Shown: positions 37,110-42,373 of the stretch, in pieces
How positions within the stretch are numbered: the first letter of the stretch is position 1
Layout of the letters: each line of letters opens with the position of its first letter
Assembly (NCBI GenBank): GCA_946478665.1
Contig: CAMLCZ010000001.1
Coordinates: 1 to 64,000 of the forward strand
DNA: 64,000 nucleotides
Direction: 5' to 3'
Origin: an uncultured Bartonella sp.
Lineage (GTDB): Bacteria > Pseudomonadota > Alphaproteobacteria > Rhizobiales > Rhizobiaceae
Program-made: the position numbers and the translations under genes
Notes under the pieces: generated by a model
Told to the model about the DNA's origin: nothing
What the model saw: the letters and a program-made list of their open reading frames with translations, nothing else
The model's database searches: none

Positions 37110-37814
37110 ATGAAACTTACTTGGCTTGGGCATGCGGCTTTTCGCGTTGAAACGGGTAATGCCGTTATCTTAATTGATCCATTTCTGACGGGTAATCCAG
37201 CTGCAAAAGATCTGGATATAGAAAAGGCTATTGATGGTGTTACGCATATTGCTCTTACACATGGGCACAGTGACCATGTGGGGGATACTGTTGCTATCGC
37301 ACGAGATAAGAATGTACCAGTCACTGCGAATGCTGATTTGGCAGCATGGTTAGGATCGCAAGGTGTTCAAAACCTGTTTCCCGGTAATACCGGGGGAACA
37401 CAATCCCATGACGGTTTTTCCATTACTTTTGTTAATGCACTCCATTCGTCCGCAGTATTGACAGAAGATGGTGTGTCACAATGCCTCGGGAATCCTAATG
37501 GTTTGATATTTCATTTTAACGATGCGCCAACATTATATCATATGGGCGATACCGATATTTTTTCTGATATGAAATTGATTAATGAGCTGCATGCGCCAGA
37601 AGTCGGAATAGTTCCTATTGGTGATATTTATACTATGGGGGGAGCGGTGGCTGCTTTGGCTTGCCGGAGGTATTTTGATTTCAAGACCGCAATACCATGT
37701 CATTACGGCACTTTTCCTGCACTTGACCAGACAGCTGAACGTTTTGTTCTTGGTATGGAAGGTGGAAAAACATTTGTGAAAACGCCAAAAATTGGTGAAA
37801 ATTTTACGCTATAA
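37110..37814 (+). CDS. Metal-dependent hydrolase (UPF0173 / beta-lactamase fold)
   Basis: [42 protein letters not shown]. Confidence 0.93.
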
Positions 37815-37889
37815 TAGTTTTTTATTGCTTTTATCGCTTTTTATATGTATTTGATTGAGAATAAAATTCTATTTTTGGGAGGATATCTA

Positions 37890-38270
37890 ATGTTTGTAGA
37901 TATAAAACGGTCAAACGTGTTGTCCATCTTCCACGTATGGCGGTGAAAGGCGATTAAGCGGGACTTATGGACAGAGTGCAGTTCTCAGCTTTGTTGAGCA
38001 CTTGATGAAGTGGATGTTAATGGCGTCTCGCCGTTAACATCTGTTATGCGTAAAGATTGACTGAAGCTTATATTAATCAGCTGAAGCGTTAATTCCGCTA
38101 TACATGCATATGTCGCTGTCGCCGCTGTTTATGTCTAAGAGATAGCAACGACAATTGATAATAATCATTGATGCTTTTGAGGTGATCCCTCTGAGCATTA
38201 GAGGCTCTTTTGTACCATACGACAAGCCATACACAGGCATGTCCGCAGGTATTGATCGTTTTCAATTTTA
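37890..38270 (+). pseudogene. Decayed second copy of gatC fused by deletion to the early part of gatA
   Basis: Colinear with intact gatC at 40573 (exact shared AAAACGGTCAAACGTGTTG, CTTTGTTGAGCA, CTTGATGAAG), then with gatA at about 40970-41190 (exact shared CCATACACAGGCATGT); multiple frameshifts and an internal deletion. Confidence 0.88.
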
Positions 38271-38387
38271 CTTGGGCGACTAAGGCAAGTGAAAGCTTCT
38301 GCTTTTTCACGAATTAAGAATAAGAAATGTTGAAATCTATCATCGCAAAATATTTTTAAAACAACTAAATTTTAAGAGGTATCCGTA

Positions 38388-39176
38388 ATGGATTTAGATC
38401 AAAAATTCACAGTCATTACAGGCGCAAGCTCTGGTATCGGCTATGCGACAGCAATAGCCTTTGCAAAACGCGGCAAAAATTTGATTGTTATTGCAAGACG
38501 ACAAGAGCCACTGGAAAAGCTTAAACAAGAAATTGCAAGCATTAATCCAGCCTTGACCGTGATTATTAAGCTTTGTGATTTATCACAACCTGTCAATGCA
38601 CATCATCTGTTCGATGATTTAAAAGATTATTTTATAGAAACATGGATTAATAATGCCGGTTTCGGTCATTATGGTACTGTAGATAGCCAAGATCTCAATA
38701 AAATTGAATCTATGCTACATGTGAATATTGAAGCACTGACTATTTTTTCAACACTGTACACACGAGCCTATCATGATGTTGAAGGGGCTCAATTGATTAA
38801 TATTTCTTCACGTGGCGGATATACTATCGTTCCCGATGCAGTGACTTATTGTGCAACAAAGTTTTATGTCAGTGCATTTACTGAAGGATTATCGCATGAG
38901 CTAAAAGCAGCCAAGGCTCAATTAAAGGCTAAAGTGCTTGCTCCAGCCGCAACACAGACGGGGTTTGGGCAGGTTGCTAACAATGTGACAGAGTATGATT
39001 ATGACAAGCGCTTTGCAAAATATCATACTCCAGATCAGATGGCCGAATTTTTACTAGCGCTTTACGACAGTGATTATTCTGTTGGCGAGATCAGCACAAA
39101 AGACTTTTCATTCTCTTTAAAAAACAGCGTCTTACCTTATTCTGGCAATATCTCAGAAAACCAATTAGCTAAATAA
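38388..39176 (+). CDS. Short-chain dehydrogenase/reductase (DltE/YqjQ-like SDR)
   Basis: FTVITGASSGIGYATAIAFAKRGKNLIVIARR; WINNAGFGHYG; YCATKFYVSAF. Confidence 0.92.
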   Translation: MDLDQKFTVITGASSGIGYATAIAFAKRGKNLIVIARRQEPLEKLKQEIASINPALTVIIKLCDLSQPVNAHHLFDDLKDYFIETWINNAGFGHYGTVDSQDLNKIESMLHVNIEALTIFSTLYTRAYHDVEGAQLINISSRGGYTIVPDAVTYCATKFYVSAFTEGLSHELKAAKAQLKAKVLAPAATQTGFGQVANNVTEYDYDKRFAKYHTPDQMAEFLLALYDSDYSVGEISTKDFSFSLKNSVLPYSGNISENQLAK

Positions 39177-39196
39177 TATATTTGGGGAACACGACG

Positions 39197-39982
39197 ATGA
39201 AAAAATTTTTCGTAAAATTTGCTTTTTTGCTTATTTTTCTAACTTATGGAACATTCGGAATGGCTCAAACACAAGTGGTTGCTACATCATTACACGCGCC
39301 AACAGGCATTGCATTTAATAATAAAGGTGAAATGTTAGTTACCAACTGGTCAGGAAATTCCGTTGTTAAAATAACGACACAAGGAAAGCAACAAGTTGTT
39401 TATTCAGGTATAAGTGCCCCAGCAGGTATTGTCGTTGATAATCGCGATAATATTTATGTCGCTTCTTATCAAGATGATTATATTTTAAAGATCGATAACG
39501 TTGGTAATGCATCAAAAATCGCCAGCGGCTTTCACACTCCTACAGGGATCGCGTGGTCAAATACGGGGGAATTATTGGTAACTAATCGTTCAACAGGCGA
39601 GATAGTATCGGTCAATATTGAAACTGGCGCAAAAAAGATTATAGCATCAAAACTTAACTTACCCGTTGGCGTGACACAATTGCCTAATGGTGATTTGGTC
39701 GTTTCACAATATAGTGGGAATTTAACACATATTAATGCCGCAGGTGTTCATAAGCAGTTAGGTTCTAGCTTTAATCGACCTGGCGTGGGTATCGTGACCA
39801 TTTCCGACCGTTCAGTTGCCGTCATTGATAATGGCGCAGGGGCTGTTCGACTAGTGAATGTTGATACAGGGGAAACAAAACTTCTCGCTAGTAATTTAGG
39901 TGGGGCAGTAGCTTTAGCCTATTTCAAGCATCGTTATTATGTTGGAACTTGGAATGATGGCCAAGTACGTGTTTTTGATTAA
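39197..39982 (+). CDS. Secreted NHL-repeat / SMP-30-like beta-propeller protein
   Basis: Signal peptide MKKFFVKFAFLLIFLTYGTFGMAQ; repeated HAPTGIAFNNKGEMLVTNWSGNSVVKI / SAPAGIVVDNRDNIYVASYQDDYILKI / HTPTGIAWSNTGELLVTNRSTGEIVSV. Confidence 0.85.
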   Translation: MKKFFVKFAFLLIFLTYGTFGMAQTQVVATSLHAPTGIAFNNKGEMLVTNWSGNSVVKITTQGKQQVVYSGISAPAGIVVDNRDNIYVASYQDDYILKIDNVGNASKIASGFHTPTGIAWSNTGELLVTNRSTGEIVSVNIETGAKKIIASKLNLPVGVTQLPNGDLVVSQYSGNLTHINAAGVHKQLGSSFNRPGVGIVTISDRSVAVIDNGAGAVRLVNVDTGETKLLASNLGGAVALAYFKHRYYVGTWNDGQVRVFD

Positions 39983-40249
39983 TCTCGAATTAGCAAAAAT
40001 GAGCTGCAATATTTACCAGTAAGATCAATACAATAAGGGTAAATATTCCACCTTACTAACTCAATCAACATTTTCTTTGCGGGCGTTTTTTGCTTGGTTT
40101 TTGAAGTGCAGAGATAGATTGAGGATAAGTAACAGTTAACTTAAAAGTATGTTGGCTTATTGCCCCGTTCGCGAGACAGTTTGTACGGCGCGGAAGGGGC
40201 AATCACGTAAAACCTAAACCAGACAATGACGGCTTGTTGTGGCTGCTTC

Positions 40250-40497
40250 GTTGATATGAAATTGATAATGGATTGCATGAGCTAAAAAGTGGGATAGTTC
40301 CCATCGGCAACATTCATACTATGGAGAGCTGTCGTTGATATGGCGTGGAAGTAATTTCTATTTTAAGACCGCGATATCATGTTATCATAGCGTTTTTCCA
40401 AGGCTTCATTAAACACTAAAATACTCTGTTTTTTGCATGGAAGGTGGAAAAACAATTTAAGAGACACCAAAAGTCGGTGAAACGCTCAACTTCTGAC
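40250..40497 (+). pseudogene. Decayed second copy of the 3' part of the UPF0173 hydrolase
   Basis: Colinear with 37560-37814: TGATATGAAATTGA, ATTCATACTATGGAG vs ATTTATACTATGGGG, exact shared ATGGAAGGTGGAAAAACA, then CACCAAAAGTCGGTGAAA vs CGCCAAAAATTGGTGAAA. Confidence 0.85.
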
Positions 40498-40572
40498 GGT
40501 CTTTTCTTGCTCTTATGGCTTATGACCTGTATAGCCAGAAGAAGGAATGTCTATTCATACGGGATTGATCTA

Positions 40573-40860
40573 ATGTCTGTAGATATTAAAACGGTCAAAC
40601 GTGTTGCTCGTCTCTCACGCATAGCAGTGAAAGATGATGAAGCAGAACGTATGGCCAGAGAACTGAATGCAATTTTAGGCTTTGTTGAGCAACTTGATGA
40701 AGTCGATGTTAATAATGTCGAGCCGTTGACCTCTGTTATACCTATGTCTTTGCGTACGCGCGAAGATGTTGTTACAGATGGCAATAAAGCCGCAGATATC
40801 GTGGCCAATGCACCATTAACAGAAGACCACTTTTTCCTTGTACCAAAAGTGATCGAGTAA
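40573..40860 (+). CDS. gatC: Asp-tRNA(Asn)/Glu-tRNA(Gln) amidotransferase subunit C (track ORF 40444..40860 is over-extended)
   Basis: [55 protein letters not shown]. Confidence 0.95.
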
Positions 40861-40891
40861 TGTACGATTTTTTGATTTTCGAGGCATGATT

Positions 40892-42373
40892 ATGACTGAT
40901 TTAACGAAGCTGACAATTGCCGAGGCTCGTGACGCTTTGAAACAGCGTGAAATCAAGGCAACAGAATTGACTGATGCTTATCTTAAAGCAATTGAAGCGT
41001 CTAATCCCGCTATAAATGCGTATGTCGCTGTTACCGCCGATCATGCCCAAGAGATGGCAAAGGCATCGCAAAAACGCATTGATGATAATGAAATGGGTGC
41101 TCTTGAGGGTATCCCTCTTGGTATCAAAGACCTTTTTGCAACATATGATATCCATACACAGGCATGTTCGCATATTCTTGATGGTTTTAAACCAAAATAT
41201 GAGTCCACTGTTACGGCCAATTTATGGGCTGATGGTGCAGTCATGCTTGGTAAACTCAATATGGACGAGTTTGCGATGGGGTCTTCCAACGAGACATCAC
41301 ATTATGGTGCGGTTATCAATCCATGGCGTGCTGAAGGATCAGACAAGCAACTTGTACCGGGTGGTTCTTCTGGTGGTTCAGCAGCAGCCGTAGCAGCCCA
41401 TTTATGCGCTGGTGCAACAGCAACTGATACTGGCGGTTCAATTCGCCAACCGGCAGCGTTTACTGGCACAGTTGGAATTAAACCGACCTATGGTCGTTGT
41501 TCACGTTGGGGGACAATTGCATTTGCTTCATCTCTTGATCAAGCCGGTCCAATTGGCCGCGATGTCCGCGATTGTTCAATTCTTCTTAAATCTATGGCAT
41601 CATTTGATGATAAGGATTCAACCTCTGTTGATGTTCCTGTGCCTGATTACGAAAGTTTCATAGGAAAATCAGTAAAAGGCATGAAAATCGGTATTCCAAA
41701 AGAATATCGTGTTGATGGCATGTCTGAAGAAATCTTGAACCTTTGGCAAAAGGGCATTGATTGGCTGAAAGATGCAGGTGCAGAAATCGTCAATATTTCG
41801 CTACCTCATACAAAATATGCTTTGCCAGCCTATTATATCGTAGCGCCAGCGGAAGCCTCTTCCAACTTGGCACGTTACGATGGTGTACGGTTCGGTCTGC
41901 GTGTGCCGGGCAAAGATATTATTGAAATGTATGAAAATACGCGTTCGGAAGGATTTGGAAACGAAGTTAAGCGCCGTATATTGATAGGCACATACGTGTT
42001 ATCTGCCGGTTATTATGATGCTTATTACCTCAAAGCCCAAAAGGTCAGAACGCTTATCAAACAAGATTTTGATAATTGTTTTGATGCTGGTGTTGACGCG
42101 ATATTAACGCCAGCAACACCGACACCAGCTTTTGGTATTGCCGACGAAAAACTGAAAAGTGATCCTGTGGCAATGTATCTTAATGATATTTTCACGGTGA
42201 CCGTTAATATGGCTGGCTTACCGGGAATATCCTTGCCTGCAGGTCTTTCTTCAGATGGTTTGCCATTGGGACTTCAGCTTATCGGTAAGCCTTTTGGCGA
42301 AGGCGAATTATTTCAGACAGCTCATATAATTGAACAGGCAGCTGGTAAGTTCTCACCTAAAAAGTGGTGGTAA
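40892..42373 (+). CDS. gatA: Asp-tRNA(Asn)/Glu-tRNA(Gln) amidotransferase subunit A
   Basis: [27 protein letters not shown] amidase signature. Confidence 0.97.

Follow-up and report, generated by a model that had tools for sequence, protein, structure and literature searches.

A two-gene cassette between decayed duplicates of the hydrolase-gatCA junction in bee-gut Bartonella, with signs of transfer between host lineages

The window analysed here is a stretch of 64,000 nucleotides from the genome of an uncultured bee-gut Bartonella (G000), and the same locus is present in its relatives B. apihabitans BBC0178 (G021) and B. apis PEB0122 (G043). On the plus strand, an intact UPF0173 hydrolase gene is followed by decayed gatC' and gatA', an SDR gene, a gene for a secreted propeller, a decayed 3' end of the hydrolase gene, a promoter, and the intact gatC and gatA (Table 1). 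The SDR and propeller genes are called the cassette below. The left intergenic region (37815..37889) has a p-distance of 0.43 to the right copy in its own genome, and of 0.07-0.08 to the left copies of G006 and G008. The right spacer of the carriers contains a dyad (40162-40200, GCCCCGTTCGCG...CGCGAACGGGGC), whose 12-bp arms are perfect in G006. Its degree of decay varies among carriers, and it is not followed by a T-run. It may be left over from the founding molecule.

Table 1. Features of the doubled hydrolase-gatCA junction and of the cassette in the window
Feature	Position	Strand	Evidence or remark
UPF0173 metal-dependent hydrolase, intact, left outer copy	37110..37814	+	NCBIfam NF001911, 315.8 bits (cut-off 144); full-length in clades A and B
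Left hydrolase-gatC intergenic region, decayed copy	37815..37889	+	-10 of the gatC promoter lost
gatC', decayed	37890..38049	+	7-bp deletion and in-frame TAA; blastn, alignment
gatA 5' part, decayed, to about codon 102	38055..38265	+	blastn 73% to 40966-41191, E 2.5e-27
gatA'-SDR spacer	38266..38387	+	alignment: gatA homology not recognised
SDR family oxidoreductase, cassette gene 1	38388..39176	+	Pfam PF00106, 3.6e-31
Secreted NHL beta-propeller, cassette gene 2	39197..39982	+	NHL PF01436; intact in 7/7 carriers
Right spacer, common to all carriers	39983..40251	+	contains the dyad 40162-40200; alignment
Hydrolase 3' end, decayed, from about codon 152	40252..40497	+	blastn; clade A type in all carriers (tree, AU test)
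Conserved gatC promoter-like element, right copy	40507..40535	+	TTGCTC-N17-TATAGC
gatC, intact, right outer copy	40573..40860	+	
gatA, intact	40886..42373	+	

Is the junction really doubled? The first-pass annotation had claimed that the hydrolase-gatCA junction occurs twice with the new genes between the copies, and that the outer hydrolase, gatC and gatA are intact while the inner copies have decayed. When the window was compared with itself by blastn, 37565-38047 matched 40252-40739 (71% identity, E 2.8e-58) and 38056-38265 matched 40966-41191 (73% identity, E 2.5e-27), and no other pair of duplicated blocks was found in the 64 kb. The decayed pieces score 102-130 bits each against their intact partners, and none of 500 dinucleotide shuffles exceeds 28 bits. 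The self-comparison and the shuffle control bear out the doubling. The outer frames are full-length, the inner pieces are decayed and align to gatCA and the hydrolase at 71-73%, and the coordinates first given for them are accurate to about 20 nt. The doubled segment is ~0.95 kb long, from about hydrolase codon 152 to about gatA codon 102. Since the right copy starts and the left copy ends at these points, the inner gatA and hydrolase pieces were truncated from the start, and only gatC' among the inner copies began as a complete extra gene. Direct repeats of the target segment thus flank the insert, as in a Campbell-type insertion-duplication.

The comparison with relatives covered a genus set of 72 Bartonella genomes, with one genome per species and some of them MAGs, and the junction was compared in 14 genomes. 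gatC is universal in the genus set and the propeller is found in seven genomes. The bee Bartonella split into clade A, to which the genome of the window belongs, and clade B. The carriers are G000, G006 and G008 in clade A and G007, G021, G043 and G082 in clade B, and the cassette has one copy in the window's genome and in each other carrier; the structure is alike in G021, which is a complete chromosome. An uninterrupted, single and empty junction with a hydrolase-gatC gap of 77-80 bp is found in six genomes of the bee clade (G012, G014, G018, G047, G074 and G075) and in the outgroup G003, which is the plain hydrolase-gatC-gatA order that the first-pass annotation had proposed to look for. 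Remnants of the doubled junction are present in all seven carriers, which are seven species; the cassette without duplicated flanks, the arrangement named there as speaking against the reading, occurs in none of them. The junction in the 14 genomes is either empty, or holds this cassette or a deleted form of it, so that the diversity of content typical of hotspots is not seen. As for the wider genus, the UPF0173 hydrolase is present in the bee-gut clade and G003 and absent from the remaining Bartonella in the sample of relatives, and ruvX directly adjoins gatC in the four hydrolase-less genomes inspected. In G075 (L103, 4411-5887), gatA lies in two overlapping frames, a frameshift or an assembly error.

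How did the neighbouring genes survive? All Bartonella checked (G003, G012, G014, G043, G050, G054, G077 and G079) have a promoter-like element of the form TTGCnn-N17/18-TATAGC upstream of gatC, whether the hydrolase gene is present or not. Of the two copies at the doubled junction, the right one retains it and the left one has lost it, so the doubling leaves gatCA a promoter and the hydrolase its full frame. In such bacteria gatCA encodes part of the amidotransferase responsible for Gln-tRNA(Gln) synthesis, so that harm could well come from an insertion that did not duplicate the junction. The hydrolase 3' end just 5' of the gatC promoter (CCAAAAGTCGGTGAAACGCTCAA) has an unusual conservation at the DNA level, except in the left copies of clade A, which no longer drive gatC.

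The two genes of the cassette have had different fates. In the three clade A carriers the cassette is complete and the SDR intact; the clade B carriers keep the propeller, and their SDR is reduced to C-terminal remnants. In the alignment, G043 has a deletion of its own and G007, G021 and G082 have a common end point, and by this comparison the SDR is lost in clade B through two different deletions. The SDR has a dN/dS of about 0.11 (G000-G008) and is assigned by Pfam PF00106 only, no NCBIfam model scoring above cut-off. Its nearest records are about 60% identical and come from Clostridium and Listeria; at E<=1e-60 it has no match in a sample of 399 genomes of its own phylum, the window's genome left out. 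For the propeller, matches outside the bee Bartonella are one of ~33% on a Roseibium plasmid and one further alphaproteobacterial match, in whose genome a close SDR was not found. In the searches made, neither the SDR and propeller as a pair elsewhere nor a donor molecule with a hydrolase-gatCA segment was found. AlphaFold predicts a complete propeller with an N-terminal helix ahead of it (pLDDT 91), and the closest folds are the designed Pizza6, the sensor domain of PknD, and virginiamycin B lyase (Vgb). With a dN/dS of about 0.12, which indicates purifying selection, and with its persistence in carriers that lost the SDR, the propeller is the part of the cassette under lasting selection.

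Did the cassette descend together with its hosts? When clades A and B are compared, the flanking genes are close to or at saturation for synonymous sites, with a dS that ranges from about 1.0 (in some pairs, for the short gatC) to more than 3 (3.6) and is often not computable, while the dS of the propeller is 0.42-0.61. The propeller itself does not evolve slowly, since close pairs give similar dS for it and for the flanks (propeller 0.23 for G000-G006 and 0.16 for G007-G021). The opposite is seen between G000 and G008, where dS is 0.03-0.23 for the flanks, 0.57 for the propeller and 0.31 for the SDR. As the contrasts go in both directions, the cassette has a history of its own, and judged by synonymous divergence it has resided in its hosts for a shorter time than the host lineages have existed. 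By the same kind of comparison, its divergence and phylogeny conflict with the flanks within the clades too. G082 goes with G007 and G021 in the remnant and propeller trees and has the same end point of the SDR deletion as these two, but it is paired with G043 by the flank genes; the AU values are modest (0.043-0.047), and together with the dS contrasts they are the basis of the within-clade transfers. The flank ("species") tree is built from the local flank genes only. The grouping of the three clade A remnants is not rejected (AU p 0.124), and therefore no branching order is claimed for the A-type cassettes. A dip of synonymous divergence near the cassette in clade B was considered as a footprint of transfer and set aside, because empty relatives show a similar dip (in the hydrolase 3' region, 0.13 between G043 and the empty G074 versus 0.11 between G043 and G007).

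The decayed frame around the cassette gives a further line of evidence. All seven hydrolase remnants, those of the clade B carriers included, form one group beside the intact hydrolase of clade A (100/98), and forcing the B remnants onto the B hydrolases is rejected with a p-AU of 0.00024. The 7-bp deletion and the TAA of the dead gatC are common to G000, G006 and B. apis PEB0122, and are absent in G008. Comparison at the level of sequence shows that the decayed frame moved together with the cassette between distantly related species. The dS contrast, the remnant tree with its AU test, and the switch points described below all speak for exchange of the insert between lineages by homologous recombination.

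Where does the exchanged DNA meet that of the recipient? On the left side of G043, every informative site between gatC nt -39 and nt 44 is B-type and every one from nt 53 onward is donor-type. In the left copy, B-type sequence covers most of the intergenic region and gatC up to nt 44, and the switch from B to A maps between nt 45 and 53. On the right side, the sites are mostly A-type up to a ~23-nt block that ends the hydrolase and mostly B-type past it, with scattered homoplasies among the informative sites near the junctions in both parts of this decayed DNA; in the site table, 40467-40489 is a block conserved among the clade A right copies and the clade B hydrolases. On the recipient the two switch points are in inverted order, and the ~150 bp that separates them occurs in two copies, both recipient-type. 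The inverted order thus argues against one simple double crossover, and an ends-in insertion with gap repair, or integration of a circle with conversion, could give these switch points in one event. This insertion topology is clear in one clade B genome, G043, the left switch being deleted in G007, G021 and G082. In the clade B carriers the hydrolase, both intergenic segments, gatC and gatA are all B-type, so that the outer genes and intergenic copies are of recipient type and not as left by a double crossover in the outer core genes. Between G000 and G008 the p-distance is 0.06-0.08 up to gatC' nt 50, 0.08-0.37 inside the tract, and 0.04 from the end block on, and the edges of this diverged tract match those of the A-to-B switch points. 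Such a coincidence fits an exchange that would be confined to the best-conserved blocks.

We consider it likely that one founding insertion-duplication took place in a clade A-like lineage, and that the cassette with its decayed frame was then transferred by homologous recombination. The founding DNA would have carried ~0.95 kb of the hydrolase-gatCA junction together with the SDR gene and the secreted propeller gene. The recipient would have been a lineage related to clade A of the bee Bartonella, and homologous recombination would have placed the DNA at the junction. A Campbell-like, "ends-in" insertion of this kind would double the junction and leave the outer copies whole, the right one with the gatC promoter, and the neighbours unharmed; the inner pieces would then have decayed. 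By comparison of the sequences, the cassette and the decayed frame later passed from a clade A-type donor to clade B, where a ~150-bp segment of the recipient was doubled. The inner decayed pieces may have acted as homology arms in an exchange needing RecA-type recombination only, and the DNA may have been carried by the Bartonella gene transfer agent or another uptake route. The clean junctions in some clade B species might be ancestral or pop-outs. A linear ends-in molecule yields the same product as an integrating circle. The first-pass annotation had read the locus as a Campbell-like integration, of which the insertion-duplication is supported; a circular molecule, a linear molecule, and a tandem duplication plus insertion are not separable by sequence.

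Could the locus have been founded in two steps, by tandem duplication of a ~0.95-kb hydrolase-gatA segment and then insertion of the SDR and propeller genes at the new joint? Tandem duplications are common, the final order would be identical, and the comparisons of the doubled junction are compatible with it. However, the insert must land exactly on the new joint, a bare duplication without the cassette is not seen in any carrier, and the second junction, in clade B, also has an insertion topology, so that a single mechanism covers both; we therefore regard the two steps as unlikely. For the transfer from A to B, a double crossover in the outer arms (hydrolase and gatCA) followed by conversion of both intergenic regions to B type would have a documented parallel in transfer via flanking core genes (PMC5635113), and intragenomic conversion between doubled segments is possible. 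It is quite unlikely given that the clade B carriers have B-type hydrolase, intergenic segments (both), gatC and gatA, and that the switch points (left, gatC nt ~48; right, the hydrolase end) are inverted on the recipient.

Placement by a transposon, an integron or an integrase-driven element might be suggested by the dyad in the right spacer, but is very unlikely. The 2.76 kb lacks a recombinase reading frame: in 37815-40572 no mobility gene was recognised from ORFs and profile searches, the SDR and propeller being the sole notable frames. Terminal repeats of its own were not found either; the flanking repeats are fragments of host genes, ~950 or ~150 bp long depending on the clade, and end in conserved host blocks. 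The identical location in both clades would also be expected if the insertion were older than the A-B split and inherited vertically with several losses. This is extremely unlikely and was rejected on the dS contrast (propeller 0.4-0.6 versus flanks about 1 to >3) and the AU test; the B remnants are A-type, and the dead-gatC mutations cross the clades yet are missing in G008. Beside the preferred reading, a single founding insertion-duplication with later transfer, we put forward a further one tentatively: the cassette may be mobile without a recombinase, the decayed junctions serving as homology arms by which it reinserts at the hydrolase-gatC junction via any DNA route and pops out again. 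If this is true, its spread as a genetic element would require nothing beyond ordinary RecA recombination, and the doubled promoter would spare the downstream operon.

How does the locus compare with known systems? As in Campbell-type (single-crossover) integration or laboratory insertion-duplication, the homologous target lies as direct repeats around the insert and the outer genes are intact. Here, however, the case is natural and old, the inner copies are decayed, no vector backbone is recognised, and a later spread between species is indicated. Transfer of accessory genes through flanking core genes at recombination hotspots was described in 2017 (PMC5635113), and the likeness lies in accessory genes without recognisable mobility genes, a fixed core junction, and housekeeping recombination. 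In contrast to those hotspots, the core flanks here enclose a doubled and decayed junction, the switch points fall within the inner copies and short conserved blocks, and clade B has an insertion and not a replacement topology. In the merodiploidy of pneumococcal transformation (PMC3784515), uptake of a DNA fragment likewise leads to a tandem duplication, by homologous recombination between sister chromosomes; that duplication is about 107 kb, unstable and derived from existing repeats, whereas the one here is ~0.95 kb and frames foreign genes. In a review (PMC6519360), BaGTA is described as highly conserved in the genus and as capable of moving chromosomal DNA between cells, and for this locus it is a candidate vehicle only.

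Movement of genes at fixed sites without mobility machinery is usually inferred statistically over many genomes. At the present locus it has left a readable record: junctions that are empty, a duplication from the founding event, pseudogene mutations common to different species, and switch points located to within about ten bases (left) and a ~23-nt block (right). To this the second insertion-type junction, in clade B, adds a shorter recipient duplication (~150 bp versus ~0.95 kb). The bee symbiont B. apis PEB0150 is transformable with linear DNA (PMC11389375), which makes the locus a testable model. What is more, the propeller has outlasted its partner SDR, which suggests that it serves a function under selection in the bee gut.
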